From contig WBUR01000013.1 in assembly GCA_008933615.1 (NCBI GenBank), forward strand, positions 21,497 to 85,496: a DNA stretch of 64,000 nt, written 5' to 3'. Numbering within the stretch: position 1 is the stretch's first letter; every line of letters begins with the position of its first letter. This stretch comes from a bacterium. Lineage in GTDB: Bacteria; CLD3; SB21. The notes beneath the pieces were generated by a model, which saw only the letters and a list, made by a program, of their open reading frames with translations, did not search any database and was not told where the DNA came from. This document shows, piece after piece, positions 26,909-44,676 of this stretch. Both the position numbers and the translations under genes were made by a program.

Positions 26909-26910
26909 CA

Positions 26911-27443: not shown

Positions 27444-27920
27444 TCATGGTCTCGTACCAGCAAAACTATAATACAGTGTATCAATAATTTGTAGCGGCGG
27501 CGGATATTCCATAGATCGTATTGCTGTGCATAACCCTGATACATATGTGCACGAACAAGAGTCAAAAAGAAAATCCAGGCTTGAATACATGCCGTTGTTA
27601 TACAAACCGGAAGAGCCTCTGACAATATTGTTTATGTCAAGGTAGGCATATCCCAAGTAGGTTCTTCCTGCGTAGCTAATCCCAAGAGTCCAAACCGCAG
27701 GAGCGGAGAACTCGTCAGTTCTATAGTCAGTAAAGGTCATCTGTACGTTAAATGAATCCGAACCGCGTAATGTTGTAGAATAAGCGTTCAACACATTTGC
27801 AGGATCGAAACTTTCTCTGATTCCGACGCAGTCTGGAAATTCCGTCTTTGCATCATCGTTGAGATCGGGGCAACCGGCCAATATTGCTGTGACTAGGACC
27901 ATGGTGGTTAAATATTTCAT
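27444..27920 (-). CDS. Small lipoprotein, unknown function
   Basis: Lipoprotein of 158 aa. The signal MKYLTTMVLVTAILAGC gives a lipobox LAGC at residues 14-17. The mature part has a mid-protein Cys pair and SGLYNNGMYSSLDFLF, with alternating strand pattern. A cluster of Cys near DSCSCTYVSGLC may form disulfides in the periplasm. The ATG at 27920 is used; an in-frame start 10 codons upstream lacks a signal character. No known family recognised. Confidence 0.7.
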   Translation of the reverse strand: MKYLTTMVLVTAILAGCPDLNDDAKTEFPDCVGIRESFDPANVLNAYSTTLRGSDSFNVQMTFTDYRTDEFSAPAVWTLGISYAGRTYLGYAYLDINNIVRGSSGLYNNGMYSSLDFLFDSCSCTYVSGLCTAIRSMEYPPPLQIIDTLYYSFAGTRP

Positions 27921-27962
27921 ACACCCACTCGCCTTTCTTAAGCGCGACAATTATCATTCCAT

Positions 27963-28143
27963 TTACTTTGATATGTAAAACCAAATAGCTTTTCCCAAAT
28001 ATTCACTTTTGATCGATTCCGTATCTTCACGAAGTACCGCCTTTAAATTCTGATTCTTTGTTGTCGTCTTGTCTACAAATGAGCACGATGCAAGTTGGAT
28101 GATGAGTAACATATAATATGGACCGGAACAGGATCGTTTTCAT
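27963..28143 (-). pseudogene. Frameshifted small lipoprotein gene
   Basis: AGAGGAGTAGCT precedes an ATG at 28141-28143 that begins MKTILFRSILY. In the +1 frame from about codon 11 the reading continues as a hydrophobic segment with lipobox, MLLIIQLASCSF, then a 39-residue mature part to TAA at 27963-27965. In the original frame a stop follows after 38 codons with no signal peptide. Joining the two by a one-base shift gives a single normal lipoprotein of about 57 aa. Alternatively the internal ATG is the true start of a 49-residue lipoprotein and the upstream site is chance. Confidence 0.5.
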
Positions 28144-28188
28144 AGCTACTCCTCTATAGTAATTTGTTGATGAGCAGTTATTTTGGTG

Positions 28189-28827
28189 TTAAAACCCAAA
28201 TAATTTAGCATATGTTAGTTGTTTCATTCTAATCTCAATAGAATTTCCATATTTCTTTATTTTGATTAACGATTTTTTAATCCACTTCTGTCTGCCGTTA
28301 TATTGGATTTTGATATCAGTCCCTGTCTCTATTAAGATCGCACTTGGTTCAAGCCACAGAACTTTGGTTTCTAAAGGATCGATACTTTCTTCATATACAA
28401 ATTTATGTTTAGATGCGACCGCCCCAATGACCGCCCCAATAGGTGCGAATCCGATACCTAAACCAATTGTGGCAAAACCTCTACCCCCTTCAAAAAAGAT
28501 ATCACATAGGCCGGCAACTGTTGCCCCTGCGAAGAAACCCAGCACTGCTCCAGCAGCCTTATTGTTTCGATACGTAACGGATCTAATTGAGGAATTTTTG
28601 TAAGTATTGGTTCTATTATTGTCGTCCATCTTCACAGCAGCCGAGTCTATGCCAAACGTAACTTTTGAGTAATATTCGTTACCGTCTGTCATTAGTATTT
28701 TAGCCGATCTGTTCTTGTTAGCGCTGTTCAGAGAGTCAATGGTTGCATTTGGAGTATTGTCATTTAAAAATGATCGAGAAACACAACCTATTTGGGATAT
28801 AAGGATAACGCAAATTAGTGACTTCAT
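28189..28827 (-). CDS. Glycine-zipper lipoprotein
   Basis: Lipoprotein of 212 aa: signal MKSLICVILISQIGC with lipobox Cys at 15. A soluble part (AKILMTDGNEYYSKVTFGIDSAAVKMDD) precedes the glycine-zipper hydrophobic segment AAGAVLGFFAGATVAG ... IGLGIGFAPIGAVIGAVAS. After it comes another soluble strand-rich part. Same plan as the proteins at 30358-31134, 31178-31915 and 32001-32693: signal, small beta domain, Gly zipper, second beta domain. GTG two codons upstream is less likely than the ATG with GAGG upstream. Function unknown. Confidence 0.75.
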   Translation of the reverse strand: MKSLICVILISQIGCVSRSFLNDNTPNATIDSLNSANKNRSAKILMTDGNEYYSKVTFGIDSAAVKMDDNNRTNTYKNSSIRSVTYRNNKAAGAVLGFFAGATVAGLCDIFFEGGRGFATIGLGIGFAPIGAVIGAVASKHKFVYEESIDPLETKVLWLEPSAILIETGTDIKIQYNGRQKWIKKSLIKIKKYGNSIEIRMKQLTYAKLFGF

Positions 28828-29052
28828 GGGCACCTCATCTTTATAAATCTAGCAAGCAGTTACGATGTCTCGCTTAAAGTTCTGCCTCACGTTACGATCC
28901 CAAACAGCCGGACGTTGATCCGAACCCAGACTCATATACTAACATCTAGAATCATGTTATCTTGTTTTCCTTTTGATCCCAACTGCTTGTTGAAAATTAC
29001 GGAAAGGCGGTTACACTTGTGATATACCTTAGCCACAGATACGCGACCATCT
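28828..29052. other. Spacer of about 225 nt with no supported gene
   Basis: Both strands were read. A short minus-strand stretch after the 29053 stop (IKDGRVSVAKVYHKC...) is open for about 40 codons without start or ribosome site, so it is not called. The rest contains stops in all frames. It probably holds the promoter and leader of the 28827 gene. Confidence 0.5.
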
Positions 29053-29577
29053 TTAATAATACAACTTGATTCCCAAGACATACCCAGTGTTCCCAAAATA
29101 TATCATTGGATCTATACTGACGCCTACTCTGTTATTATATCTATCCACTGCTTTTGAACTATGGGAGATACTTGTGATAGTGCCCAGTGCAATTGTCATG
29201 ATTGCGGCTCCTTTGACAATGTTGCTAATAGTAGAAGGCTTGGCGGGTACATTGATCCAAGATAGAACACGCCCCAAGTTGAATTTTTGATTTTTTTCAT
29301 AAGTATAAAAACCGGCACCAATCAATCTTAATATTGCATCCGTAGTGATTTCAGATCTGTTATCGTGCGCATAGAACTGACCGACGGATGGCCCAACAAC
29401 GATCCCTGAAGCAGTATACCATTTCTTGTTTAGGATAATAGCACCCGATGTTATAACTACTGTTGCCCCTAAATCAATCATAACAACGCTCGCCATGTTC
29501 TTTGATGAAGAAAATCTAACCGGGTCTTGTGCAAGCAATTCGCCTACGACCAAAAAAAGGATCATGACAGTTCGCAT
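29053..29577 (-). CDS. Secreted hydrophobic protein, paralogue of the gene at 24.8 kb
   Basis: Protein of 174 aa with a signal peptide (MRTVMILFLVVGELLAQ) and several Gly/Ala-rich hydrophobic segments. GPSVGQFYAHD...R.IGAG and SSKAVDRYNNRVGVSIDP align in order with GPSMGNFYAKD...R.IG and SANTYNEKHGLSGVSVGYDP of the 24802-25437 protein. It ends in aromatic residues (KLYY), as exported barrel or membrane proteins often do. Function unknown. Confidence 0.7.
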   Translation of the reverse strand: MRTVMILFLVVGELLAQDPVRFSSSKNMASVVMIDLGATVVITSGAIILNKKWYTASGIVVGPSVGQFYAHDNRSEITTDAILRLIGAGFYTYEKNQKFNLGRVLSWINVPAKPSTISNIVKGAAIMTIALGTITSISHSSKAVDRYNNRVGVSIDPMIYFGNTGYVLGIKLYY

Positions 29578-29674
29578 ACGTTCTTTTGTCTTTGTTAACA
29601 GATAGTTGTCTGACTATTACCAGAATGGTCAAAACACTTCCACGACTTCAAACAAATCAAGTAGTCAATTAAGT

Positions 29675-30298
29675 CTAATCCCTAACACAGCGAACGGAGT
29701 GACCATAAGTTCTATAACTGAGTAGCTTGCCCACATTGATGTTATTGTAGAACAGGACACGGCCGAAAGCGCTTATTGAATCAGATTCCGTAGCTGACCA
29801 CCAGCTACTACTCATTGCATTTAAGAAATATGTACCGTCGGCGAGACGATAACCGCCCGGCAGCGCTGTGAAGCCGGTCTCGTTAGTTGCTCCTGTGTTG
29901 GGACTTGCCCAATGTGCTGTTCCGGCTTCTTTTAGTTTACCGCCCGCAACAGTTGCGCCGCCCAAGTAGGTTGAGAGAACTGTCCATTCGGTATCAGTCG
30001 GTAGATGCCAGCCCGGAGGTGAGGCAGTTAGAGCCCTATTCCAAGTGTAAAGTCGGCCTAAGGTGTGATTAGCAGATGAGTCATTATTATTATACCATGA
30101 ACTGTCTGCCGTACGGAAATCTAGATTTTCTGCCATCCATGTCTGTGTTCCTATGGTGACGGTTTGATATGCCCTGCCATCGCGTGGGTCAGTAAGTATA
30201 TTACTATCAAAATCCTTATCGGGATCATTTGAGCAGAAAAAATTTAGTGATGAGAATACAGACATCGATAACAAAATTAAGATGTGTTTTGTTTTCAT
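29675..30298 (-). CDS. FISUMP-domain lipoprotein
   Basis: Secreted protein of 207 aa with a signal ending near NFFCSND, where Cys22 is a likely lipid anchor. The rest is a Fibrobacter succinogenes major domain (FISUMP, TIGR02145-like): DPRDGRAYQTVTIGTQTWMAENL, GRLYTWNRALTA, GWHLPTDTEWTVLSTYLGG, GFTALPGGYRLADGTYF, SSWWSATESDS and a final SVRCVRD. Such domains are common in FCB bacteria, often as repeats; here there is a single copy. Role in surface binding is inferred. Confidence 0.88.
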   Translation of the reverse strand: MKTKHILILLSMSVFSSLNFFCSNDPDKDFDSNILTDPRDGRAYQTVTIGTQTWMAENLDFRTADSSWYNNNDSSANHTLGRLYTWNRALTASPPGWHLPTDTEWTVLSTYLGGATVAGGKLKEAGTAHWASPNTGATNETGFTALPGGYRLADGTYFLNAMSSSWWSATESDSISAFGRVLFYNNINVGKLLSYRTYGHSVRCVRD

Positions 30299-31915: not shown

Positions 31916-32000
31916 ATGTTCTCCTATTTTGTTTCGGTTTACGTCAATGGACTTCACGAGGTGGTATTGGGCTCAACAGTTTGATTCCAAATTAACATCC

Positions 32001-32693
32001 TTATTTATGAAAAGTTTTTTCATATAACCGAGTTGGCAAAGCCAAAATAATTGAATCGGCTGTTTTTCGCACAATCTTCAAATCTGATTTTTTGAGCAAG
32101 ACCATCTTACCGTTGATGCGAATTTCAATTGTATTATCAGTTTCGGTGCCGATGTTCGATAAACCTATTTCAATTGCTTTCCATACTTCTTCGTTTTGAG
32201 AAGTTAGAACACTAAGCAATTTCAATTTCTCATCTTGTGTCATTTTCGACAAATCGTGAACCTCGGCGCCGCCTTTCGACGCTCCAACAATTCCGCCTCC
32301 AATCATTCCCAGAAGCCCTCCAATAAGCGCGCCGGCGACTAGGCTAGGTCCCGGTCCGAAATCCCAGTTTCCAAATCCTTCGGGGTCAGGCTCCGGCTCC
32401 TTATAAGTTGACAAACCGACTAATCCGCCGATAACGACTCCCCCGAGAAAACCAATTCCCATACCTTTTCCAGCTTTCGATTTTTTGATTTTGCTAAGAT
32501 GTGAGATAGATTCAATTGAAGTTTTATGCTCTGTTGTCGTCGTTACGAATACGACAGAATCACCCTCCAGTTGTAGCGATAGCGCTGAAACTTCCAGCCC
32601 GTCGTTAAATGTAATTTGCCAATGGTGATTTTGCGAAAGCAGGTCGAGTCCCGAATAAAAAAATAGAGTGAAGAGGATAAATAGCAGCTTCAT
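32001..32693 (-). CDS. Glycine-zipper secreted protein, tandem paralogue
   Basis: Protein of 230 aa with signal ending DLLSQ. It shares NHHWQITFNDGLEVS and VLLKKSDLKIVRKTADSIILALPTRLYEKTFHK with the next gene downstream, and has Gly-zipper repeats (GMGIGFLGGVVIGGLVG; LVAGALIGGLLGMIGGGIVGAS). AAAAGGAGGGCC precedes the ATG. The GxxxG pattern suggests oligomerising membrane helices. The region upstream of its start contains one copy of the long repeat that flanks the alkane island. Confidence 0.78.
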   Translation of the reverse strand: MKLLFILFTLFFYSGLDLLSQNHHWQITFNDGLEVSALSLQLEGDSVVFVTTTTEHKTSIESISHLSKIKKSKAGKGMGIGFLGGVVIGGLVGLSTYKEPEPDPEGFGNWDFGPGPSLVAGALIGGLLGMIGGGIVGASKGGAEVHDLSKMTQDEKLKLLSVLTSQNEEVWKAIEIGLSNIGTETDNTIEIRINGKMVLLKKSDLKIVRKTADSIILALPTRLYEKTFHK

Positions 32694-32789
32694 AGGCCCT
32701 CCTTTTTTATGCGAAATTAATTACAACTGTAGGAATTTCAAGACGATTAAAATTCCGCGATCAAATTGTCAAATTACTTTTTTTTGGAA

Positions 32790-33005
32790 ATGAGACTGGA
32801 GGAAGCTCCCGAATGGGATACAGAATTGGCCACAACGATATGATATTTCTTTATGGTACGGCAGGAATGCAATGATAATCAAGTTGAATTATTTTCAATT
32901 GTGAAAGAATTAGCATTTTTTTTGCTAAATTTTATCTAACCGGTGGTAGGAGAATCCTTATTTCTCAGCAGCATCCGCCGCCGTCGTAGAAATAAGTGGA
33001 CTTGG
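32790..33005. repeat. Left copy of an imperfect direct repeat containing an arsM 3' tail
   Basis: Bases 32964-32985 are identical to 39740-39761 (22 nt) and the flanking ~200 nt align with 39455-39780 with substitutions and gaps: GATATTTCTTTATGG and AAAGAATTAGCATT match GATATTTCTATGG and AATGAATTAGCATT. On the minus strand the shared part encodes VxxSTYFYDGGGCC*, the C-terminus of the arsM protein, but here it is joined to the ABC permease and read in another frame. It is one end of the 33-39.4 kb island. Confidence 0.75.
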
Positions 33006-33766
33006 GAACGTATTCGCATATCGTAATATGAAACGAGAAAAACAGCGCCAAAGAAAAAGAGCATATAAGCAAGGCATATAAAAATTGATCTTTGTAAAGG
33101 AACATTTGTGAAAGCAGCGCCCACTGATAACTGGGTTGGGTAATAAGCAGGTAATAACTGAATTATGATTTTGTTTCTTGCCTCCGATAAGATAAGTGGA
33201 TTTTGTAGCCAGCCGGCATCTATATTTGCTAGCAGGATAACCGTCAATGTTCCTTCAAGGGCCCCATTGGTCATATAACCCACCAACATTCCATACCCGC
33301 CATAAATAAGTCCGTTAAATAACATACCCAAAAGCATCGGCCAAAAATATAGAGGCTGAAAAAAAAACTGTATAGAAAAGCTAATGCACAATACCAACAA
33401 TACGATAACAAAAAACATTACAGTCAATACAGATGACATTAGTTCTACAGGATTATAACCACAGATTACCAGCCTCCGGTTTACATTTTTGTATTGCTGA
33501 ACAAGACTCAGAGACACGAAGGAAGATAAAAATCCGATGGTTGCCATCGAAACAAATATCAAGGACACATTTGCCTCTGTCGCTTTAATCATCGTTTTTG
33601 TTTCAGCAATGCCGATCTCGAATAAGATATCTTTTGCAGAACCAGTAAGCTGTACAGTAAAAATAAAAAGTGTAGGTGTGCCTACTAAAAGAAGTAAAAC
33701 TAATTTTTGACGCATCAACATCCTAAAATGCATACTAATGCTTGTAATAAGAAATCTCCCTCTCAT
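32936..33766 (-). CDS. ABC-2-type transporter permease with chimeric C-terminus
   Basis: Membrane protein of 276 aa with six hydrophobic segments in the order of ABC-2 permeases, which partners the ATPase at 33763-34368 (4-nt ATGA overlap). The natural protein seems to end near FLVSYYDMRIRSQ. The last 20 residues (HLFLRRRRMLLRNK...) come from the neighbouring arsM 3' end read out of frame, so the C-terminus is a recombination product. Since arsM-like export is unlikely, its cargo would rather be lipid or hydrocarbon from the operon. Substrate is inference. Confidence 0.8.
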   Translation of the reverse strand: MRGRFLITSISMHFRMLMRQKLVLLLLVGTPTLFIFTVQLTGSAKDILFEIGIAETKTMIKATEANVSLIFVSMATIGFLSSFVSLSLVQQYKNVNRRLVICGYNPVELMSSVLTVMFFVIVLLVLCISFSIQFFFQPLYFWPMLLGMLFNGLIYGGYGMLVGYMTNGALEGTLTVILLANIDAGWLQNPLILSEARNKIIIQLLPAYYPTQLSVGAAFTNVPLQRSIFICLAYMLFFFGAVFLVSYYDMRIRSQVHLFLRRRRMLLRNKDSPTTG

Positions 33767-34368
33767 TGAAGACCTTCTTTTCTTAAAGTAAAAATATTGT
33801 CAAATCTTTCTGGATCATTTAATAAATGTGTAACTAACAGGATGCATTTCCGCTGATCTTTCAATTGATACATCATTTCTCTGAAATGTTGATATGTCGC
33901 CATGTCAAAAGCGATATAAGGTTCATCAAGTATCAGAATATCAGGTTCGTGCAGCAATGCTATGGAGAGATTTAGTTTTTGTTGAGTTCCACCGCTCAAA
34001 TGCTCAGCTCGGTAATACAAGTATTGTCTGAAACCAAGCTGATCCATCAAACTATCCCGCCTCGCTATCCACAGAGGCTTATTCTGTTTGTTCAAACCGT
34101 AGGCAGTTGCGAAATAGTTGAAATTTTCTTCTATAGTAAGCATAGAAAAAATGATGGGATTCTGCGGACAATAACCAGCTTTGCCATTTAAAATAACAGT
34201 ACCTTTATCTGCGCTTAATTCGCCAATAAGGATCTTCAGCAATGTGGATTTACCGACTCCATTTTCGCCAACTACTGCATTGAGTGTGCCTGGGCCGATA
34301 GCAAAAGATATGTTATTCAGTATTTCTCTTTTACCGTATGACTTTGATATATTTAAAGCTTTTAGCAT
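33763..34368 (-). CDS. ABC transporter ATP-binding protein
   Basis: Nucleotide-binding protein of 201 aa with all motifs: Walker A GENGVGKST, Q-loop YCPQNP, signature LSGGTQQK, Walker B ILILDEP and H-loop VTHLL. Overlaps the permease start by 4 nt, so the two are translationally coupled. The pair has the size of simple ABC-2 exporters. It is the sixth gene of the minus-strand operon that begins with the GNAT gene at 39308. Confidence 0.92.
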   Translation of the reverse strand: MLKALNISKSYGKREILNNISFAIGPGTLNAVVGENGVGKSTLLKILIGELSADKGTVILNGKAGYCPQNPIIFSMLTIEENFNYFATAYGLNKQNKPLWIARRDSLMDQLGFRQYLYYRAEHLSGGTQQKLNLSIALLHEPDILILDEPYIAFDMATYQHFREMMYQLKDQRKCILLVTHLLNDPERFDNIFTLRKEGLQ

Positions 34369-34395
34369 GCTGAATAATTCATTTGGTTTAGTCTA

Positions 34396-35313
34396 CTATA
34401 TTTCTTTCAGCAACTGATTGGGCTCTGGCTCATGAGTCAATCTTGGTCCTTTCCATAATCGTAAATAATTTTTAAAGAATGAGATCCTTCCTTCACCTGA
34501 TCCGATGAACTGAGGAAGGTGTAACCATGGAATTTTCGGATTTTGATGATGGGCAAGATGTAAATTAAAATTCAAGTATATCAGTCTTAGCCAGATTGGG
34601 ATCTTTAGGTTATGAGCTCCATTGATTATGTCCCGCGGGCTGAAGGCATGATTTACATAATTCTGGGAAGACCACAAAAAGCCATGCATCGCAAATAACG
34701 TGAGCCATGATGTCCACTTGAGATCAAGAACAAAAAAAAGGGCTACCTGGACAATGATAACAAGTATGCTTTCCCATCTTGATTTAGCAACCTTATCTTT
34801 CCGGTCGCTCCCTTTCAAAAACCCACCAATTTCTTTATGCGAAGAGAAAAAGCGGGTGTAAATAAGCCCTGGCGCAAACGCGTATAATAGCACAGCAAGC
34901 CACATAGAAAAATACCCAATCCCGATCATCATTCCATATAAGGTACCGTATCGTTTAAGTTTTTCCTGGTGTTCATAATACAAATCCCACATTTCTTCAT
35001 CCGTCCGGTTTTTTTTATGATGCTTTAAATGGCAATGTTTAAAAAAGGTATAGGGTGCAATAAATAAAGTACTGAGCCATCTGCCCATAATATTATTCAT
35101 AGATTCATTTGGATTTATAATACTATGTTCAGCTTCATGTATAAGTGAGTAAACGGGTACCATTATTACGGCAAACAGAAAACCATACAAGAAAACCCAT
35201 CCATAATTGTGCACATGAGAGGCTGTCCATAATAGAGCAACGTAGGCACAACTGCACAAAATAGTTATTAGCAAGTTCATTTTTTCTGGTATTTTATATT
35301 GATCAGTAACCAT
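34396..35313 (-). CDS. Membrane fatty-acid desaturase/hydroxylase
   Basis: Di-iron integral-membrane protein of 305 aa. Three histidine boxes are visible in order: HEAEH (around residue 65), HLKHH (around 95) and HLAHHQNP (around 255). Four or more hydrophobic segments frame them. It would insert a double bond or hydroxyl into an acyl chain (acyl-lipid, -CoA or -ACP). Located between the BtaA-like gene (11 nt) and the ABC ATPase (27 nt) in the same operon as acyl-ACP reductase and the ADO-like ferritin, so it probably tailors the chain before or after reduction. Confidence 0.9.
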   Translation of the reverse strand: MVTDQYKIPEKMNLLITILCSCAYVALLWTASHVHNYGWVFLYGFLFAVIMVPVYSLIHEAEHSIINPNESMNNIMGRWLSTLFIAPYTFFKHCHLKHHKKNRTDEEMWDLYYEHQEKLKRYGTLYGMMIGIGYFSMWLAVLLYAFAPGLIYTRFFSSHKEIGGFLKGSDRKDKVAKSRWESILVIIVQVALFFVLDLKWTSWLTLFAMHGFLWSSQNYVNHAFSPRDIINGAHNLKIPIWLRLIYLNFNLHLAHHQNPKIPWLHLPQFIGSGEGRISFFKNYLRLWKGPRLTHEPEPNQLLKEI

Positions 35314-35324
35314 GGCTCGAAAGT

Positions 35325-36437
35325 TTATTCTTTATTAATAGTATAAGCGGCGACTTTCCCATATACAAAAGATCGGTCATTGAATTGGATTTCTTTGCTA
35401 AGTGTTTCATCTTTTACTATTGAATAACGCAAATCTTCAGGAACTTCCCGCGGAATCATCAGGTTACGAAAAATGATCCTTGAGTTTTTACGTGCAGTTC
35501 GGAATACGGCCGAAAATAAGCGGTGCGTGTCTTTTTTACTCATCAGTTCGCATATATTGGATAATGCAAAACAGTTTATGCTTTCAGCCGACATAGAATC
35601 CAGCCAGCCTTGCGCATCCGCCGTAATAATCTTTATCCTGTCAACCCTTGATTTTATTAATTCAAAGTTTTCTCTTTTTAAATAGTCCGGCACTTCATTG
35701 TCATTAGTATATTTGCCTAAGAGGTATAGCGACAAAAAATAATTTCCTTTTAAAGGAATATCCCTGAATACTTTTTTTGAGCGGTTATAAAAACTTTCGG
35801 CAAATGATGTGCTCCCATCATCAAAATGAAAATAATCAGCTACCAAGCCACGTTTAGCCAACATTCGTTTATTAAATAAGATCTTGAACAGGTAATGAAA
35901 GCGTTTCGTATTCCATACTGTGTCAAAATAAGCTTCCTGTTCTTCTCTGGATTTTTCTTTGAATAAACCTATTACTCTTCTTTTTCCTTGCAATACATTA
36001 ATGAATTTACCTGCCAGACGTATAAACCGCTCATACTTGCCATTCATTAAAAATCCCTTCGTTAAAAGCTCTTGTCCATTCCAGAATAGAAGCGCTTCTT
36101 TACTTAAAAAAGGCTTCATCTTTTCGTATAAATTCAGTCTGTTGCCGTGCTCTTTTAACCCAGCAAATCTGATGAAATCATCAAACCCAAGAGATCGTAT
36201 GGCTGCAATTTTTAATTCCAATAACCAGGATTGAGCTGGGTTAATATCAATACTGTAAATAATTTCAGGATCAGATAATAGAAAGCCAAGCACATTACAT
36301 CCTCCTGATGTAATTGCCAATATTGCGTCATTGTTTCTTATTTTCAATGCGGCACGGTCGGCTTCGGGGTCTTCCCAATTATGGGTAAACACTAACTTAA
36401 ATAATTCTATCTGGTCTTTTACTTTTTTCATAAGCAT
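35325..36437 (-). CDS. BtaA-like (DUF3419) aminocarboxypropyl transferase
   Basis: Protein of 370 aa. Its opening LFKLVFTHNWEDPEADRAAL and the SAM-binding segment AITSGGCNVLGFLLSD..IYSIDINPAQSWLLELKIAAI match DUF3419/BtaA enzymes, which transfer the 3-amino-3-carboxypropyl group of SAM to diacylglycerol in betaine-lipid synthesis. The later NICELMSK and FRNLMIPREVP fit the family. Start: in-frame ATGs at 36494, 36467 and 36461 overlap the upstream gene; 36437 gives 10-nt spacing. The acceptor here may be another lipid. Specific BTA activity is not proved. Confidence 0.82.
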   Translation of the reverse strand: MLMKKVKDQIELFKLVFTHNWEDPEADRAALKIRNNDAILAITSGGCNVLGFLLSDPEIIYSIDINPAQSWLLELKIAAIRSLGFDDFIRFAGLKEHGNRLNLYEKMKPFLSKEALLFWNGQELLTKGFLMNGKYERFIRLAGKFINVLQGKRRVIGLFKEKSREEQEAYFDTVWNTKRFHYLFKILFNKRMLAKRGLVADYFHFDDGSTSFAESFYNRSKKVFRDIPLKGNYFLSLYLLGKYTNDNEVPDYLKRENFELIKSRVDRIKIITADAQGWLDSMSAESINCFALSNICELMSKKDTHRLFSAVFRTARKNSRIIFRNLMIPREVPEDLRYSIVKDETLSKEIQFNDRSFVYGKVAAYTINKE

Positions 36438-36447
36438 CCGTCCATTG

Positions 36448-37503
36448 TTACCATAATCCATTTTCATTGTAGAATGGAGCAATATCAATTCCATGTTTTA
36501 CACTTAAACTATAAATTTCTTCCATATTCTTAACTGTAATATTCCCTTTTCCGGCGGAATAAGTTTCAAATCTATTTTCAAATGCAAGAACCATAGCTTC
36601 CACTATGCAGCCATGTATGATATATGGTGCTGCATAGCGATAAATAGTATTTGAATAATCGGGGCTGAATGTATATCCGTGGGTTACTTGGCCCATCCCG
36701 CCATGAAATATTTTTAATCCATTATTGTTCTCAATCTTTGATTCTAAATTTTTAGGGTAACCTGCGTCACAGACAAGTACATCTTTTTTACAATCAGTCA
36801 GTTTTATTCCTGATGAACTGGCAGCACAAATTATAATGTCTGCTTCAGGAATCTGGTCCTGCACTGAAACAGCATAATTAACGGAGACATTTTCTTTACT
36901 TAACTCCTGCGATAGTTTTTCCAACCGCTGATTATTTCTGGCGCACAAAAGAAGTTTTTTTACTTTATTTTTCAAGAAGTGTGAGCACGCCATTCCAATA
37001 TCCCCGGTAGCGCCGATAATTAAAACAGCGGATCCCTGCAAATTAATTCTCTGTAGGATTGCAGCTTTCTCTACCCCTTTTACAATAAAGGCGGAGGTAA
37101 GAGTATTGCCTGTTGTATATTGTGATTCACACCGGGCAAATGAATCAAGATTTCCTTCAAGAACAATTGAAGTGAATCCCCCGAGTGCTACGATCCGTGC
37201 ACCCATTTTATTTGCCCAGGCCGCTGCATTCATTACTTTACCGATATTCGTTCTGATAAATTGTGTATCTAATTTGTCGGGATCAATAAATGTTTCAATA
37301 TATACGCCGTTTATTACAGCGCCGGTTTTCGATCGCACCTTTACTCTGAAAAGATCCCTTGGAGGGATAAAAGAAAATATATCTTTAATTTTTTTAGAAG
37401 ATAATTCACCAATTCGGATACCATTTATAAACGTAGTAATATTCTGCCAATTATCCTGGTGTCCGATCACTGCAAAATCTAAGCTGGTAGACGGGCTATC
37501 CAT
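36448..37503 (-). CDS. aar: Acyl-ACP reductase (AAR), long-chain fatty aldehyde producing
   Basis: NADPH-dependent reductase of 351 aa that converts acyl-ACP to fatty aldehyde. Seen, aligned to cyanobacterial AAR (341 aa): FAVIGH at the N-terminus, ALGGFTSIV at 107-114, YTTGNTLTSAFIV at 129-141, the Rossmann motif GATGDIG at 164-170, CDAGYPKNL at 245-253, and HGCIVEAMVLAFE, where Cys299 corresponds to the catalytic Cys (294 in Synechococcus). Near-identical motif order to cyanobacterial proteins but outside that phylum. It overlaps the ADO-like gene by 25 nt, so the two are coupled. Short SD GGAGAAAAATC. Confidence 0.93.
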   Translation of the reverse strand: MDSPSTSLDFAVIGHQDNWQNITTFINGIRIGELSSKKIKDIFSFIPPRDLFRVKVRSKTGAVINGVYIETFIDPDKLDTQFIRTNIGKVMNAAAWANKMGARIVALGGFTSIVLEGNLDSFARCESQYTTGNTLTSAFIVKGVEKAAILQRINLQGSAVLIIGATGDIGMACSHFLKNKVKKLLLCARNNQRLEKLSQELSKENVSVNYAVSVQDQIPEADIIICAASSSGIKLTDCKKDVLVCDAGYPKNLESKIENNNGLKIFHGGMGQVTHGYTFSPDYSNTIYRYAAPYIIHGCIVEAMVLAFENRFETYSAGKGNITVKNMEEIYSLSVKHGIDIAPFYNENGLW

Positions 37504-38216
37504 ATAATAGATTTTTCTCCTGGTATTCCAATATTGTCCAATGACTGTGCGTAGAGTGCCATTGCATTGCCCCGTAAGCTTATAATGTTAAGCCCTATAT
37601 GATGCATGGAGCCTTTCATACAGTCTCCGTTGCACACACCACAATGTCCTCGAAGGTCTGTTGTTGCAGTAAATTCTGCGAGGATGGTCATGCAATTTGT
37701 ATGCAGCTCTTCAAACTTATCCAGGAATACTGAAGGGTTTTTTCCCAATTCTGCGCGTAGTAAATCGGAAGAGTGTTCGAGATGTTCTTTTTCTTCATCA
37801 GCAATACTGAGAAAAAGTTTTCCAGCCTCACCCCCCAATGTATTACCTACATCGGTGTACATTGATACCGCAAATGATTCAAGCATTACTTCTTGTATGA
37901 TAAGACATGCAATAAAATCCTTTTTTTGAGCATAGGACAAAAATTGTTTGCGCACATTACCCCAATACTCACTATTCATATTGATTTTAATTTTCAATTT
38001 TGTCTTCTTTGCATAGGCGATAAAATCTTCTGCATGCATCCGCTCACTGTTGGCGTGTTCTACTGCTTCCATTTTTTCATGGGGGTCATCAATTGTTTCT
38101 GCCAGGGTTGCAAAATTGGACATTCCGATAAGCTCACCTGTGATAGCCTGGGAGAAAACATCTGAAATGACATTGAATTCTTCAATGCTCATTGCCTCTT
38201 TTATTGCTTTTTCCAT
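37479..38216 (-). CDS. Aldehyde-deformylating oxygenase-like ferritin (ADO), with Cys-rich insertion
   Basis: Ferritin-like di-iron protein of 245 aa that resembles cyanobacterial ADO (~230 aa), which makes alkanes from fatty aldehydes. The six metal ligands can all be placed: E28 (TGEL), E58 and H61 (SERMH), E113 (IQEVMLES), E142 and H145 (EEKEH). The alignment continues with CLIIQEVMLESFAVSMY for CLLIQxLLIExFAISAY and LDNIGIPGEK near the end. Unlike cyanobacterial ADO it has HCGVCNGDC and MHH at 191-206. Function is strongly suggested by the adjoining AAR gene; activity is not proven. Confidence 0.88.
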   Translation of the reverse strand: MEKAIKEAMSIEEFNVISDVFSQAITGELIGMSNFATLAETIDDPHEKMEAVEHANSERMHAEDFIAYAKKTKLKIKINMNSEYWGNVRKQFLSYAQKKDFIACLIIQEVMLESFAVSMYTDVGNTLGGEAGKLFLSIADEEKEHLEHSSDLLRAELGKNPSVFLDKFEELHTNCMTILAEFTATTDLRGHCGVCNGDCMKGSMHHIGLNIISLRGNAMALYAQSLDNIGIPGEKSIIWIARLPA

Positions 38217-38255
38217 GATTTAATAATTTTAGTGTTAATGGTCACATTTTGTTTC

Positions 38256-39308
38256 TCAAACTAAAGAATAATCTTGAAACGGTATTCCTTTTTTTACTTT
38301 TCCTATAAGAGTTTTGTTGTCTTTTATGCTCAGCAACATCCCGACAGAATTGAAAGTCACTTTCAACAAACCGGAAAAGCACTTGTTATAAGGGTCTTTT
38401 TCATGCAAACCGATCGAAGCAAAAATATAGGATCTTTCATACACGATATTCCTTACATGATTGATCATTAATTTTACGATCTGTTCATCCCTGTTATTCA
38501 CGGCTAAATACTTTATATAGATCATCCGGACCGGTTCGTTTAATACAGGCATTTTTGAAATACCGGTTACCTGGCTGATAGCATTCATAACTGTGATAAG
38601 GAGTTTCATTTTCCATGACAGCCTTGTTACCACATTTTGTTTTACATGCATGGTATCTATTAAACAGACCGCGGCTATGATCTTATTTTTATTCCTGATA
38701 GCAAAAATATCGGTACCTTCTAGTTTTTCTTTCGTGATAACACTTCCCAATTCATATTTGCAGTAATGGGCATCAAAAAATTCAATTACTTCATCTGATA
38801 TGGGTGATAATTCAATTGTATACTGTGGATGCAGGGGCTTTCCTTTTTTTCCAACAAACTGGTGAATTTTAAAGATCCCGATATTTTCAAAATCAGGTAT
38901 GCCGGGTCTGTTTTTAAAAAACGAAAATGGTTTATTGTTTCCTTTTGAAACATTGAGAAATGCAAGATCGGCTCCTGTCGGTACAACGTAGTTTGCAAGC
39001 TCATTACACAACTGTAAACCAATTCCCTTATTTCTGAATGATTCTGCCACCTTAAAATCGCCTACATAGTGAAGGGGAAAAATTTGTTCCCCCACATACA
39101 CCTGTTGCAGGGAAACACATAGAAAACCGATAATTGTATCACCCTCCAATGCCACAAAAACTTTTGTCTGTCCCCGCATTTTCAGCAGGCTAAAAAAATC
39201 CGGTTTGCGGTCAATCCGCAGTGATATTTCTCCTATCATACCGGAAGCTGCAGTTAGCTCAACTAATTGCTGATTATCGTTATTAGTTGCTAATCGGTAT
39301 TCGATCAT
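38256..39308 (-). CDS. GNAT family N-acetyltransferase, first gene of the AAR-ADO operon
   Basis: Protein of 350 aa. N-terminal ~150 residues form a GNAT domain: VALEGDTIIGFLCVSLQQV and the acetyl-CoA pyrophosphate loop FRNKGIGLQLCNEL. The C-terminal half has no recognised domain but keeps a strand-helix pattern like a second GNAT-like half. It starts the operon 39 nt before the ADO-like gene. A role in acyl transfer onto an amine or lipid is possible; the sequence does not decide. Confidence 0.8.
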   Translation of the reverse strand: MIEYRLATNNDNQQLVELTAASGMIGEISLRIDRKPDFFSLLKMRGQTKVFVALEGDTIIGFLCVSLQQVYVGEQIFPLHYVGDFKVAESFRNKGIGLQLCNELANYVVPTGADLAFLNVSKGNNKPFSFFKNRPGIPDFENIGIFKIHQFVGKKGKPLHPQYTIELSPISDEVIEFFDAHYCKYELGSVITKEKLEGTDIFAIRNKNKIIAAVCLIDTMHVKQNVVTRLSWKMKLLITVMNAISQVTGISKMPVLNEPVRMIYIKYLAVNNRDEQIVKLMINHVRNIVYERSYIFASIGLHEKDPYNKCFSGLLKVTFNSVGMLLSIKDNKTLIGKVKKGIPFQDYSLV

Positions 39309-39740
39309 TTTTTAATAAAAGTAAATCATTGCTAAGGGTCTGGACTGTAAGGCAACATGACCGCCAACTTGTCTATACAAGTCATTGAACAAACAAGGAT
39401 GAAAAAACATTGTATGATAATTTTAAAAACCTAATCGACAAATAGCTTACTTTGCTAGACGGGACTGATTGACATGCCCGGAATGGCATCAGAGGTGGTA
39501 GACAGAGATATTAATTAATAGATATTTCTATGGTAGGGCTGAAGTGTCTGAAAGTCAAATTATATTATTTGCAGCGTGTGAATGAATTAGCATTCTAATG
39601 TGGGTACGTGCTTAGAATCGCCGGCCAGATGTTTTTTTAGATCACCATCGTTCGAGAAGTAAAGAGTTCGATAAAGTACCGTGGAATGTATCGCGGAATT
39701 TCATTCCGCGTCTGCCTATAAGAACCCTTATCGCAGTAAC
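39309..39740. other. Intergenic region between arsM and the AAR-ADO operon
   Basis: No supported gene. It holds the right copy of the long direct repeat (39455-39780) and a perfect 7-bp hairpin CGCGGAA / TTCCGCG at 39692-39710, just after the arsM stop on the minus strand but without a T-run, so it may be a weak terminator or an RNA-processing site. Any promoter for the operon (minus strand) should be here; no clear -35/-10 pair was seen. Confidence 0.5.
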
Positions 39741-39780
39741 TCAGCAGCATCCGCCGCCGTCATAAAAATAAGTCGATTCG
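39455..39780. repeat. Right copy of the imperfect direct repeat, in situ at the arsM 3' end
   Basis: Matches 32790-33005. The shared core at 39740-39761 is the last coding bases plus stop codon of arsM. The copy here is in its proper place, while the left copy has lost the rest of the gene. The two repeats have the same orientation and bracket the whole AAR-ADO operon. The alignment is imperfect (roughly 65-80% outside the core by eye), so the duplication is not recent or came from a related genome. Confidence 0.7.
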
Positions 39781-40709
39781 GAGACATAGATATCGCTCCG
39801 GTGCAGAGATAATAATGCCTTGGCCGTTTTGTCACAAACAGCTAACGGCTGATTATAATTCAGTACATGTCCTTTTCGGTCGTCAAAATATTCTTCATTG
39901 CCGAAATAGATCGCCGTTCGTCCGGTGAAAACACACGGCCCGTCCTGCGGCATAGGATCTTTAATCGCGCAAATTTCGACGCTTTCGATGTGAATGATCT
40001 CGTCCGTTTCATAATGTCCCGGATCCAGAATACGGTAAGGCCGGCGGGCACGAACCTCGATCGTACCGAAACCGATGTCCGTGATCGTTCGGATATAATC
40101 GCTGAGCGTCATGGAACCGCTCAGGCACAGCGCGCGCAGCTTGGCGTCTTCCCGCAGGTTATCCGGGATCGTGTGATCGCACACCGGATCGGACAAAACC
40201 AAGCGGCCGTACGGTTTCAGAACGCGGTACATTTCCTGCAAAGCCCGTTTAAGATCATCCATCTTAAAAATATTGAACAGACAATTTTGTGCGGCGACAT
40301 CCACGCTGTTGGCCACAATCGGCAGGTCAAGCGCACTGCCGCGGCGCAGGTCAATAAATTCCGGCCGAAACCACGAGTTCACCTTAGCCGCATCGTGCAG
40401 ATTCTCTTTGCACGCGGCGACCATCTCCGGAACAATATCCACACCGATCACGCCCTGGGGCCTGCGGCTGAAATAAGAAAACTGGAGCAGTTCCATGCCG
40501 CCGCCGACTCCGACATATAGGATCGTCGGATCGTTCACCAGATCGCGGGGATTAACGGTACTGCCGCAGCCATAATTCATTTCCAGCATTTTCCGCGGAA
40601 CTTTCAGATCGGGCAACTGCCATACGGGCGTGGTCGTGCAGCAAAGCCCTTGGTTCGGATTCAGCGCGGCATCTTTGTAAACATTGTTCGTTGCATCGAG
40701 ATAACTCAT
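39741..40709 (-). CDS. arsM: Arsenosugar-type arsenite S-adenosylmethionine methyltransferase
   Basis: Methyltransferase of 322 aa. SAM-binding motif ILYVGVGGGMELLQ near residue 65, then VIGVDIVPEM, and Cys residues in GLCCTTTP, NYGCGS and CLFNIF that can bind As(III). The C-terminal GGGCC* is characteristic of the arsenosugar-pathway ArsM and distinguishes it from plain ArsM. It would methylate arsenite for ArsS, encoded 3 kb away on the same strand. SD AAAGGAG precedes the ATG. Its last ~14 codons recur at the far end of the neighbouring island. Confidence 0.9.
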   Translation of the reverse strand: MSYLDATNNVYKDAALNPNQGLCCTTTPVWQLPDLKVPRKMLEMNYGCGSTVNPRDLVNDPTILYVGVGGGMELLQFSYFSRRPQGVIGVDIVPEMVAACKENLHDAAKVNSWFRPEFIDLRRGSALDLPIVANSVDVAAQNCLFNIFKMDDLKRALQEMYRVLKPYGRLVLSDPVCDHTIPDNLREDAKLRALCLSGSMTLSDYIRTITDIGFGTIEVRARRPYRILDPGHYETDEIIHIESVEICAIKDPMPQDGPCVFTGRTAIYFGNEEYFDDRKGHVLNYNQPLAVCDKTAKALLSLHRSDIYVSESTYFYDGGGCC

Positions 40710-40830
40710 ACGGTTGCTCCTTTAAGGAATAAAATAGATCATAGAACACAGAAGACACAGATCAAACTGATTTAAACGGGTATTTCTTATTTAATTTCCT
40801 TCTTTGCGCCCTTTGCGGATAACCTCAGCT

Positions 40831-41562
40831 CTACTCATTGAGATTCCAGTCGTAGCTTGAATAGGACACCGATGCCGACCGATCAATCCTGACCCGCGAA
40901 TACTTATTCAGGAAATCAATCAGACTTCCCTTTTTTATAAAATCTTTTTCGAACCAGTCGAAGATTTTTGAGACCTTAATGGCGCGGGAAGCAAACTCGT
41001 TTTTAGTATTATCATTGATGAATGCCGTAGCTTGTTCATCAAGCTGTTTATCCAATGGTGAAGCATCGAAGGCTTCATTCCGCAGATTCGGACAAGACCG
41101 CGACGCGCACACGATCGCAAAATGAATACGCGGATCGTCGAACTCCTTTCGCAATATCTCGTGCTCAATATGGTTGAGCGTGTAGGGTGTGCCGCCGATA
41201 TTTATGAATTCGATATCCCAAGGAGACTTAAAAAAACCGCCTATATCTTTAATGCTTTTAACCGGATAGTTCTGAAGAATCAGACTGATCGTAAATGCGT
41301 TATACGCGTTGATCCAATACGCTTTGCGTTCATTGCTCGTCCAATCGGCTTTAGGAGAATTATCACTGAGTAACTTGAGATACGAATCTAAAGCAGTTCT
41401 GTCTTTTAACATCTCACGGTAATTCACATTTCCTGAAGCCGAGACATTTTTTTGGAGAATGGCATTCCAAGTCTCATGGGAAACCTGACTCACCGATGGC
41501 TGAGCAACGATCGTCATAAATCCCGCCAGGGTTAATAGTAGCTTACTAAACATGAACAGCAT
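40831..41562 (-). CDS. DUF547 secreted protein
   Basis: Protein of 243 aa with a signal peptide (about residues 1-25, ending SVSQ) and a DUF547 domain: WTSNERKAYWINAYNAFTI, HIEHEILRKEFDDPRIHFAIVCASRSCPNL, and RVRIDRSASVSYSSYDWNLN at the end. The conserved Cys pair CASRSC may be catalytic or structural. DUF547 genes are often found beside arsM/arsS arsenosugar genes; the reaction is unknown. A second ATG three codons downstream is possible. Confidence 0.88.
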   Translation of the reverse strand: MLFMFSKLLLTLAGFMTIVAQPSVSQVSHETWNAILQKNVSASGNVNYREMLKDRTALDSYLKLLSDNSPKADWTSNERKAYWINAYNAFTISLILQNYPVKSIKDIGGFFKSPWDIEFINIGGTPYTLNHIEHEILRKEFDDPRIHFAIVCASRSCPNLRNEAFDASPLDKQLDEQATAFINDNTKNEFASRAIKVSKIFDWFEKDFIKKGSLIDFLNKYSRVRIDRSASVSYSSYDWNLNE

Positions 41563-41643
41563 CCAAGGCTAATTAATGATTAACACAAAATAATAAACAA
41601 AAAACGGTTAAGTGATTCGCGCCATCTAAATAGTTAATATTCT

Positions 41644-42765
41644 TCATAGAAAGTGGACAAGGCTCCAATACACGGTTGCGCTTATAACGGCCGCAACGGG
41701 AAGCGTAAGTATCCAGGACAACAAAATAGTACGAATGACTTTTAGATTAGATTCACCGGTTGCTGCTCCAATCCCAAAAAGGGAGCCTACGGATACGTGC
41801 GTAGTCGAAACCGGTAGTCCGTGAAAACTTGCGGTGGTAACGAGCAGGGACGTGACCAGATTTGCAGTAAACCCTTGCCCATCGTTCATCGCGGTAATTT
41901 TTTTGCTCATCGTCTCGGCAACTTTGCGCGCGTTCAGCCAACCCCCGAGTACGACAGCCAGAGTGATCAATAGGACATTCTGATTCGGGCTTAGCGCGCC
42001 CGCGAGCAAAAGGAGGCCGGCCATTTTCGGCGTATCGTTGAGTCCTCTTGCAAAACATACGATACCGGCCGTAACAAAATGCGCTGAGTTTAATAGCGAT
42101 TGAACGCTGACGCCAATCACAGATCCCACGTATTGTTCTTTGCAAAATTCAGTAGAATTAATATGTACAGTCATCGGCCGCGAAGGGTTATTGATCACGG
42201 CTGCCTGGCCGGATGATTGGAGAACGTACTCCGGATTTTCCTCCCCGATGCAGGCGCAGCTGGATTTAGCAATTCCTGTTGATTTTCTCACATGTCGAAA
42301 TAAGATATAAGTACCGTAACTCAATCCGGCCGCGAGCAGCGGACTTGCGATAAGCGGAAGAATAAAAACATCGCCTAACTTTCCGAAGTTAAATTGATAT
42401 CCGACTGCAACGACGCCGCATCCCGCCAATGCGCCTACCAGGCCATGCGTGGTCGAAATCGGCATTCCGATCAGCGTAGCAAGCATCACCGTGCCCGCTC
42501 CTCCCAATGCGACCGCCGCCGCAAATTCCGGCGTCATCACGACGGCGTCCGGAACTAATCCTTTACCGGAAAAATTTTTAATAAGGATTTCGGCAACGAA
42601 TAAGGACGCGACCGATCCTAATGCCGTCGTCAGTGTCGCCCAACGAATTGCTTTGCGGTAATCCGTTGTACCGCTGCCAAATAGTGTGGCCACGCCTTTA
42701 AAATTATCGTTTGCGCCGTTCGAATAAGCTAAAAAGAAAGCGGCGATCAGAATAAGGTAGAGCAT
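41644..42765 (-). CDS. PiT family inorganic phosphate transporter
   Basis: Inner-membrane transporter of 373 aa with the duplicated PiT signature: LAYSNGANDNFKGVATL and ARGLNDTPKMAGLL, and the paired PISTTHGLVG and PVSTTHVSVG motifs. It would carry phosphate, and in this arsenic-linked cluster perhaps arsenate. The start at 42765 (GGAAGGATAAACAG) is preferred to a 33-residue longer frame that overlaps the upstream gene. Four nucleotides separate it from the GDCCVxC gene. Confidence 0.93.
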   Translation of the reverse strand: MLYLILIAAFFLAYSNGANDNFKGVATLFGSGTTDYRKAIRWATLTTALGSVASLFVAEILIKNFSGKGLVPDAVVMTPEFAAAVALGGAGTVMLATLIGMPISTTHGLVGALAGCGVVAVGYQFNFGKLGDVFILPLIASPLLAAGLSYGTYILFRHVRKSTGIAKSSCACIGEENPEYVLQSSGQAAVINNPSRPMTVHINSTEFCKEQYVGSVIGVSVQSLLNSAHFVTAGIVCFARGLNDTPKMAGLLLLAGALSPNQNVLLITLAVVLGGWLNARKVAETMSKKITAMNDGQGFTANLVTSLLVTTASFHGLPVSTTHVSVGSLFGIGAATGESNLKVIRTILLSWILTLPVAAVISATVYWSLVHFL

Positions 42766-42769
42766 CTGT

Positions 42770-43012
42770 TTATCCTTCCGCTTTCTTCTTTGAAAGGCGG
42801 TTTTGGAACATCGTTTTGGCTTGAACGGGAGGACAAGACTCTGAACCATAAGAACAAAAAACACAGCAGTCGCCGTTTTGAGGTCTCAGTTTAATACCGC
42901 AGTTTTCACATGTATAGAAAAACATGCAGGCATCGTCAGGCATGGTTTCTTCCTTTTGATGTTGACAATTCGGACAAGTAATAATGGATTGTGTAACGTT
43001 TTCCGCGCTCAT
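42770..43012 (-). CDS. GDCCVxC domain-containing (seleno)protein homologue
   Basis: Small protein of 80 aa with two CxxC pairs (CPNC; CENCGIKLRP) and NGDCCVFCSYGS. The family is known as GDCCVxC domain-containing (seleno)protein because some members have Sec in the Cys-Cys site; here both are Cys (TGC/TGT by translation, no in-frame TGA). It is often encoded beside mer genes. Its start overlaps the MerT-MerP stop by 4 nt, so it is translationally coupled. A metal or redox role is inferred. Confidence 0.9.
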   Translation of the reverse strand: MSAENVTQSIITCPNCQHQKEETMPDDACMFFYTCENCGIKLRPQNGDCCVFCSYGSESCPPVQAKTMFQNRLSKKKAEG

Positions 43013-43611
43013 TCGTGCGCCTTTGTTTGAGTGTTTATGACCACATACCCAGCCGCGGTAATGACGTCAGTTATATGATTCAAAGATGTTTTTGTTCGGT
43101 CAAACTCTACATGAGCTTCATTATTTTTGAATGATGCTTCGGATTTGAGGATCCCATCCAAACGGCGAACTGCATGCAGTACGTTTTCTTCACACCCGGC
43201 GCATGTCATCCCTTTAATTGAGATTTTACTTGTAATCACATCCGATGCTTTGACAAATTCTGATCGAGATGTTTGATTTGGTAAGATTACAAAAGAATAA
43301 TATGGGAAGGTTAGAGCTGCCAACACCAAAAAAGTTATGAGCGTCAGGAATGCTTTTGATTGAGTAAATGACGGTTTTACTTCACAGTCACAATCTTGCC
43401 GCTTAACCGGCCTTAATTTTAAATACCAGGCGGCGCCTAACGTGAAACCGGCAAATACAATAAGAAAAGGCCTCAAGGGCTCGATCCACGAAAATGAGGA
43501 AGCTATGCCGCCGATTCCCGCAAGTAACGCAATGACCGGAACGATACAGCAAAAAGATGCTGCAGTCGCGCTGATGACGGCGATCCCGGCAATAGACATT
43601 AGTTTCTTCAT
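43009..43611 (-). CDS. MerT-MerP fusion, mercuric/metal transport protein
   Basis: Protein of 200 aa. The N-terminal part is MerT-like, with three hydrophobic segments and the paired Cys in ASFCCIVPV. A short Cys loop (DCDCE) follows, then a second membrane helix, then an HMA domain ISIKGMTCAGCEENV like MerP. It would take up Hg(II) or another soft metal through the inner membrane. No merA or merR is present in the window, so the function here may be linked to arsenic or redox rather than mercury resistance. Confidence 0.9.
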   Translation of the reverse strand: MKKLMSIAGIAVISATAASFCCIVPVIALLAGIGGIASSFSWIEPLRPFLIVFAGFTLGAAWYLKLRPVKRQDCDCEVKPSFTQSKAFLTLITFLVLAALTFPYYSFVILPNQTSRSEFVKASDVITSKISIKGMTCAGCEENVLHAVRRLDGILKSEASFKNNEAHVEFDRTKTSLNHITDVITAAGYVVINTQTKAHE

Positions 43612-43623
43612 AGTTCGTCCATT

Positions 43624-44676
43624 CTAAACGATGGAGCCCTGGCAGCTTGATCCTGCGCCGGCTGTGCAGCCATAACAGTGTTGACCGATGATAATATCCC
43701 GGGTATTCAGAATATCTGAGTTGAATTCTTTAATATGTCTCGGGCTTCCGTTCGTAAAGGACAGTTCCAGCATCTGATTAAAATCACAGTCAAAAAGTTT
43801 TCCATCCCATCCAACGGAAATCGTATTCCGGCACATCACTCCGGCCGCAGCTGCGGGATTAAATGCGTTTACTAATTTCTCCATATAGGCTTCGTATTTG
43901 CCGGTTTGAAGCAGATGATCGAGAAACCGGCTGATGGGCATATTCGTAATCGTATACAGATGATTGAAAACAACACCGAACTCATCGTACAAAATGCGTT
44001 TGTAATCGGATTCCAATTTTTCCTGATCGGGCGGCAGGGACGGGCCAACCGGGTTATACACCAGATGTAATTCAAGCCTGCTCCCTTCCTGGCCGTATCC
44101 TAACTGATTCAGAGTTCTTAACGCTTCAATTGATTTTTGGAAAACACCATCGCCTCTTTGTTTGTCCGTATTTTCAGCGGTATAACAAGGAAGCGACGCA
44201 ATGACGGTCAGCTTATGTTTAACGAAGAATTCAGGATATTCACTGAATTGCAGATTGGACACAAGGATGGTTAAATTGCTTCTGACAATAATTTTTCGAT
44301 TGAGTTTTGAAATTTCCTCGACAAACCATCGGAAATTCGGATTCATCTCAGGCGCGCCGCCGGTAAGATCGACCGTGTGAATGGACGGTGTTCTTTTCAA
44401 AGCATCGATGCAATGTTCCATGGTTTTCAAGCTCATGATCTCTTTTCGATCAGGCCCGGCATCCACGTGGCAATGCGCGCAGGTTTGATTACACATTTTG
44501 CCAAGATTTACCTGGAGAATTTCCAGATTCGCAGGTTTGAGCGGATAAAGTCCGTTTTGTTCCAGACTCTGTTCAAATTTTTTCGTCTGGACTTCTCCGA
44601 TCGGCCTGTTCTCCAGAATTTGGAGTTGATACAAAACATTGCTGAGTTGATGTCCCTGTGCGTTTAAACTTTTCAT
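43624..44676 (-). CDS. arsS: Arsenosugar biosynthesis radical SAM protein ArsS
   Basis: Radical SAM enzyme of 350 aa with the 4Fe-4S motif CNQTCAHC (CxxxCxxC) at about residues 63-70, and a C-terminal Cys cluster (CYGCTAGAGSSCQG) for auxiliary binding. The blocks VDLTGGAPEMNP, YNPVGPSLPPDQ and DFNQMLEL are diagnostic of the ArsS family, which adds a 5'-deoxyadenosyl group to dimethylated arsenic in arsenosugar synthesis. It leads a minus-strand unit with MerTP, GDCCVxC and PiT; arsM lies 3 kb beyond. Confidence 0.92.
   Translation of the reverse strand: MKSLNAQGHQLSNVLYQLQILENRPIGEVQTKKFEQSLEQNGLYPLKPANLEILQVNLGKMCNQTCAHCHVDAGPDRKEIMSLKTMEHCIDALKRTPSIHTVDLTGGAPEMNPNFRWFVEEISKLNRKIIVRSNLTILVSNLQFSEYPEFFVKHKLTVIASLPCYTAENTDKQRGDGVFQKSIEALRTLNQLGYGQEGSRLELHLVYNPVGPSLPPDQEKLESDYKRILYDEFGVVFNHLYTITNMPISRFLDHLLQTGKYEAYMEKLVNAFNPAAAAGVMCRNTISVGWDGKLFDCDFNQMLELSFTNGSPRHIKEFNSDILNTRDIIIGQHCYGCTAGAGSSCQGSIV

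Follow-up and report, generated by a model that had tools for sequence, protein, structure and literature searches.

What does a gene pair that resembles the alkane-forming enzymes of cyanobacteria do in a bacterium outside that group? We addressed this question in the window, by which we mean the whole 64,000-nucleotide stretch of contig WBUR01000013.1 that was analysed (assembly GCA_008933615.1, positions 21,497 to 85,496). It encodes an ADO-like protein (ADOL) and an acyl-ACP-reductase-like protein (AARL; ACP, acyl carrier protein). An earlier account of the same DNA, here called the sequence-only reading, had taken them for the ADO and the acyl-ACP reductase (AAR) of a transferred or ancient hydrocarbon pathway. 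Judged by their sequences, ADOL and AARL are sister families of the cyanobacterial ADO and AAR. They lie in a larger conserved operon that the sequence-only reading did not report, and we tentatively favour the view that this operon is a predicted amino-lipid pathway opening with AAR/ADO-type steps.

The ADO/AAR-like gene pair

Both open reading frames (ORFs) described earlier are present and overlap by 25 bp. The features of the pair are as follows.

37479..38216, minus strand: ADOL, an ADO-like di-iron ferritin-fold protein of 245 aa (PF11266, fold model, Foldseek, ligands)
37614..37643, minus strand: C-x2-C-x3-C-x-K motif in a loop, ADOL residues 192-201 (32/32 ADOL rows)
36448..37503, minus strand: AARL, an acyl-ACP-reductase-like protein of 351 aa in which C299 corresponds to the active-site Cys and the glycines for nucleotide binding are present (TIGR04058, PDB 6jzq, residues)

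ADOL passed the gathering cut-off of PF11266 (49.3 bits against 28; E 7.5e-13) and failed that of the ADO equivalog TIGR04059 (50.2 bits against 222.65), so we file it as ADO-like rather than as ADO. The six di-iron ligands claimed for it (E28, E58, H61, E113, E142, and H145) are conserved in all 35 aligned rows, 32 from ADOL and three from cyanobacterial ADO; one locus with broken genes (L032) was excluded from the ligand counts and the trees. Structure prediction, which the sequence-only reading had proposed as a check, agrees with the assignment. The ADOL model has a pLDDT (predicted local distance difference test) of 93.5, and Foldseek matched it at E values up to 0.001 to 26 structures, all of them ADO, indicating an ADO fold. 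The ADOL family profile matched 20 distinct ADO chains, with E values from 8.3e-19 to 2.6e-13, ahead of the first other ferritin-like protein (E 4.3e-5), and the closest solved structures by sequence are cyanobacterial ADO. Rubrerythrin and encapsulin cargo were set aside as identities of ADOL, with 26.2 and 27.8 bits vs 49-50 bits for the ADO models. Homologues of ADOL are already named fatty aldehyde decarbonylase or rubrerythrin in databases, and the organism names are all Bacteroidota among the matches listed (the best 120 of 733). No relatives of ADO or ADOL were found among the viral contigs or plasmids searched.

AARL matched the AAR equivalog TIGR04058 with 204 bits (E 3.8e-60), below the cut-off of 449.7, and is therefore filed as AAR-like. 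By sequence, its closest solved structures are cyanobacterial AAR, with 6jzq as the nearest PDB entry (E 1.7e-44). The quoted motifs GATGDIG (164-170) and TTGNT (130-134) and Cys299 are indeed present. Residues T130, T131, G132, N133, G164, G167, D168, G170, and C299 are identical in Synechococcus AAR and invariant across all aligned AARL rows, whereas A165, T166, and I169 are not invariant. Family membership was also judged on the active-site Cys (C299) and the nucleotide-binding glycines (G164, G167, and G170), and AARL has all four. PigE (PDB 4ppm), a prodigiosin aminotransferase whose N-terminal region resembles AAR, also has an active-site Cys that aligns with that of AARL. However, AARL is closer to Synechococcus AAR (35.5% identity vs 26.1% to PigE) and has no aminotransferase part.

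The proposed family affinity thus holds for both proteins by profile and catalytic residues and for ADOL also by predicted fold, but neither qualifies as true ADO or AAR by the equivalog cut-offs. With the cyanobacterial pair (TIGR04059/TIGR04058; PDB 4rc5, 6jzu), the window pair shares the ADOL fold, the six ligands, the active-site Cys and nucleotide-binding residues of AARL, and the adjacency of the genes. It differs in sequence (ADOL core identity of 22.8-25.7% to three cyanobacterial ADOs, AARL identity as above), in the missed cut-offs, in the Cys loop of ADOL, and in its five-gene operon setting. The place of the Cys loop is a gap in Synechococcus ADO in the alignment. The loop is a possible metal site, and such a metal may relay electrons to the di-iron site.

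One explanation of these likenesses is a plain hydrocarbon pathway, in which AARL and ADOL would form C(n-1) alkanes or alkenes as final products, the remaining genes just sharing the operon with them. We regard it as a serious rival but less likely than not. The conservation of the six ligands and of the AAR residues argues for it, and the gene order ado-aar is that of cyanobacteria; the large shortfall of both proteins against their equivalog cut-offs and the lack of a counterpart to the Cys loop in Synechococcus ADO argue in the other direction. A change in the chemistry of ADOL is a less probable explanation, and we consider it improbable. AARL would still feed aldehyde to the pathway, and ADOL would oxidise another group, for example an amino-lipid nitrogen as in the related azoxy synthase VlmB, or would yield an alcohol or a shortened aldehyde.

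A conserved operon around the pair

The other genes of the operon and of the adjoining transporter lie on the same strand.

38256..39308, minus strand: acyltransferase of 350 aa, first operon gene, tandem GNAT with a predicted N-myristoyltransferase (NMT)-type fold (predicted fold; C-terminus fixed across the family)
35325..36494, minus strand: PF11899 (DUF3419) protein, candidate aminocarboxypropyltransferase dependent on S-adenosylmethionine (SAM)
34396..35313, minus strand: membrane desaturase/hydroxylase-family protein of 305 aa with three His boxes (PF00487, E 7.8e-24)
33763..34368, minus strand: ABC transporter ATPase (PF00005, E 2.1e-26), within a block without counterpart in same-genus genomes
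32936..33766, minus strand: hydrophobic partner of the ABC ATPase, a putative permease from sequence and position only; its final codons cross the left junction of that block

The acyltransferase model shows the tandem GNAT arrangement of the NMT type, and its C-terminus falls at a single alignment column in 27/27 family members. None of these 27 members matched an NMT family of Pfam, so our claim is limited to an NMT-like fold. Compared with eukaryotic NMT (e.g. PDB 4cax, 6pau), the window protein is bacterial and has 10-12% identity. The PF11899 protein passed the gathering cut-off of its family (248 bits against 28.2; E 2.4e-73) and covers nearly the whole profile (positions 6-383 of 385). 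We take PF11899/DUF3419 to be the BtaA family. BtaA acts in betaine-lipid synthesis by transferring a 3-amino-3-carboxypropyl group from SAM to diacylglycerol. Unlike BtaA, the window enzyme is accompanied by the acyltransferase, ADOL, and AARL; the operon shows no methyltransferase of the BtaB type, the rest of the genome not having been searched for one. The PF11899 ORF overlaps AARL by 47 bp at its start. Since most homologues are 367-372 aa long, the real start is probably about 20 codons downstream. A PDB search with the PF11899 profile gave no solved relative at E 0.01. The His boxes of the desaturase-family protein are HEAEH, HLKHH, and HLAHH, and the hydrophobic ABC partner has no Pfam match.

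A contig scan yielded 29 loci, whose record titles name groups of Bacteroidota and of Acidobacteriota as well as one Candidatus Poribacteria metagenome-assembled genome (MAG). Carriers available in culture include Algoriphagus zhangzhouensis DSM 25035 and Tamlana haliotis B1N29. With gene presence scored at at least 80 bits, ADOL was found at 29/29 loci, AARL at 28/29, the acyltransferase at 26/29, the PF11899 gene at 23/29, and the desaturase-family gene at 10/29. The missing AARL is present as a piece cut by the contig end (L029). A full acyltransferase is missing at L029 (3.9 kb upstream read, contig ending inside AARL), at L031, where the sequence read extends 0.2 kb upstream of the pair and 8.9 kb downstream, and at L032, which has fragments only. 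The PF11899 gene is missing at L015, L019, and L029, whose contigs break off inside AARL or no more than 150 bp from it, and at L020, L023, and L031. Gene order is altered at three loci (L025, L028, and L030), indicating that the association exceeds one inherited arrangement. MMPL-type genes accompany six of the 29 loci, a cluster of five (L027 tested) and L030.

Across 14 whole genomes, PF11899 is present as a single copy in 10, in each of which it is the operon copy by length and place. It is absent from the four carriers of L019, L020, L023, and L031, two of which are MAGs and may be incomplete. Of 296 genomes from the phylum of Algoriphagus zhangzhouensis (G013, the centre of the sample and included in it), two have ADOL, and the same two, one of them G013, are those with AARL and with the acyltransferase (E limits 0.001, 1e-15, and 1e-15 for ADOL, AARL, and the acyltransferase, respectively). 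In the phylum of an Acidobacteriaceae MAG (G022, likewise counted), the ADOL profile matched 5/297 genomes. Three of the matches are strong, with E values of at most 1.0e-94, and two are weak (E 1e-6 and 2e-5). G022 itself has two copies of the ADOL/AARL pair, one followed by PF11899 and the other on a 3.2-kb contig. We found no account of this operon in the open-access papers searched.

Further genes recur at some loci. At L019, L020, and L023, ADOL and AARL are separated by a gene whose family is shared by the three loci and which is AhpC/TSA-like in L020, the sole locus tested. The protein has a hydrophobic N-terminal part, and the genomes there are without PF11899. A redox role alongside ADOL, or one in guarding it against peroxide, is possible. 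A cytochrome P450 gene, a possible alternative hydroxylase, lies near the operon at 3/29 loci (L007, L020, and L030; L020 tested), and an MmgE/PrpD-family gene at 5/29 (L021, L024, L026, L027, and L032; L021 tested).

A predicted amino-lipid pathway

The data show the sequences and the conservation of their catalytic residues, two predicted folds, an operon conserved across loci, and a block-free site in relatives. The amino-lipid reading goes beyond these, and its steps are given here in order of falling support. AARL would reduce acyl-ACP to a fatty aldehyde, which ADOL would deformylate using O2. The NMT-fold acyltransferase may catalyse a long-chain N-acylation with its own C-terminal carboxylate as the base. 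The PF11899 enzyme may move the 3-amino-3-carboxypropyl (homoserine) group from SAM onto a hydroxyl, for which the desaturase/hydroxylase-family protein is a possible source. The end product would be an N-acyl amino lipid, exported via the ABC pair here and via MMPL proteins elsewhere. The sequence-only reading had also named a FabI at 21.6 kb as the supplier of acyl-ACP; the ORF (21574-22341, minus strand) does match FabI models, but its best score of 336.6 bits is under the cut-off of that model (370).

Several observations favour this pathway: the ADO-type profile, fold, and ligands of ADOL, the AAR residues of AARL, the co-occurrence of the genes despite altered order at three loci, the single operon copy of PF11899 in 10 of 14 genomes, the NMT-like acyltransferase model with its fixed C-terminus, and the transport genes, MMPL-type at six loci and an ABC pair of its own in the window block. 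Others count against it. PF11899 is absent from four of 14 genomes and just 10 of the 29 loci have the desaturase-family gene nearby, so the full gene set is not always needed. The acyltransferase resembles NMT in its predicted fold alone (10-12% identity, no NMT Pfam match). Finally, in two Acidobacteriota genomes (L076 and L077) the pair stands without any match to the acyltransferase, PF11899, or the desaturase-family protein in the 12 and 14 kb read, where a diverged gene could escape detection; L031 shows neither the acyltransferase nor PF11899 in 8.9 kb downstream.

These lone pairs speak for hydrocarbons as end products, or for a two-gene core that gained further genes. Vigneron et al. 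(2023; PMC10176705) report a fatty aldehyde decarbonylase gene, which may belong to the ADOL family, on a Flavobacteriaceae contig and propose alkane production, a published interpretation that agrees with the hydrocarbon explanation. On the other hand, the acyltransferase at 26/29 loci and PF11899 at 23/29 would have no role in alkane formation. The alkane-pathway interpretation of the sequence-only reading is thus supported in its family affinity and in the transfer, but a simple pathway from acyl-ACP to alkane is unproven, because the cut-offs were missed and the pair has an acyltransferase, a PF11899 enzyme, and a desaturase-family protein as neighbours.

Returning to the amino-lipid pathway, a more specific proposal is that the mobile operon makes an undescribed lipid class, in which the NMT-fold enzyme N-acylates a homoserine head group set by the BtaA relative on a chain that the AAR/ADO-type pair shortened by one carbon. 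We consider this proposal unlikely as a whole. If true, it would make the cyanobacterial alkane pathway a single arm of a broader module for lipid synthesis. If the pair feeds an amino lipid, published readings of such genes would need correction, cultured marine Bacteroidota would hold a new lipid to discover, and bacterial lipid synthesis would include a role for an NMT-fold enzyme. If instead the pair makes alkanes, hydrocarbon synthesis of the cyanobacterial type would extend to several more phyla and spread by gene transfer.

Origin of the block carrying the operon

The operon and the ABC transporter together make up an AT-rich block that adjoins the arsenic gene arsM.

33013..39740, no strand: AT-rich block of 6728 bp, GC 0.372, absent at the matching site in two same-genus genomes, G007 and G008 (BLAST, GC)
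32965..33012, no strand: imperfect copy of the arsM 3' end, 40/48 bases, at the left junction
39741..39788, no strand: 3' end of the intact arsM (39741-40709, minus strand), at the right junction

In G007, the counterparts of 31954-33012 and 39741-42090 abut (BLAST). In G008, those of 32760-33013 and 39740-39961 abut, and only an arsM fragment is found at that place. Positions 33013-39740 are therefore extra in the window genome. Most of 26.9-31.2 kb is also without a long match in G007, so that the interval from the rsmF-like gene (25463-26911) to arsM varies beyond the block, and we do not claim a single clean insertion event. The GC content is 0.479 directly to the right of the block; the segment at 27.4-33.0 kb has 0.40-0.41, and the outer parts have 0.444-0.449.

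The idea of a transferred pathway is supported. PF11266 occurs in one of nine genomes examined of the phylum, namely this one, and in neither of the two same-genus relatives, both of which have the block-free site. In a 28-row tree for which up to four proteins were used, the window groups with eight Bacteroidota-labelled loci with an ultrafast bootstrap (UFBoot) of 99, the branches that place it inside this group having values of 30-69. The block was likely gained from Bacteroidota, the direction being our inference, and these are a more likely donor than cyanobacteria. A recent transfer from cyanobacteria was set aside in view of the low core identity of ADOL; in an unrooted tree, ADOL forms a separate branch from the three cyanobacterial ADOs, which are too few to root it.

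The low GC of the block, its nearest relatives in Bacteroidota, and the lack of PF11266 in the eight other genomes of the phylum could also reflect a binning or assembly artefact, in which Bacteroidota DNA was misjoined into the window genome. We hold this to be highly improbable. Genus-native sequence lies on both flanks within one contig, and the block is bounded by arsM with a 48-bp copy of its end at the left junction, which is unexpected from a random mis-join.

G008 has one full arsM (C602:5148-6113) and two partial matches to its 3' part (C602:681-1001 and C60:2257-2478). Together with the arsM-end copy in the window, these partial matches suggest repeated insertion at the 3' end of arsM. 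The window also holds arsenosugar biosynthesis genes, encoding ArsM itself (NF038099, 552.2 bits, cut-off 400) and the radical-SAM protein ArsS (43624-44676; TIGR04167, 455.1 bits, cut-off 300). Between arsM and arsS lie genes for a PHO4 transporter (41644-42864) and a MerT/HMA protein (43009-43611). To the left of the block, within the variable interval, a low-GC stretch (27444-30298) contains three ORFs without a Pfam match and one Fib_succ_major protein (29675-30298).
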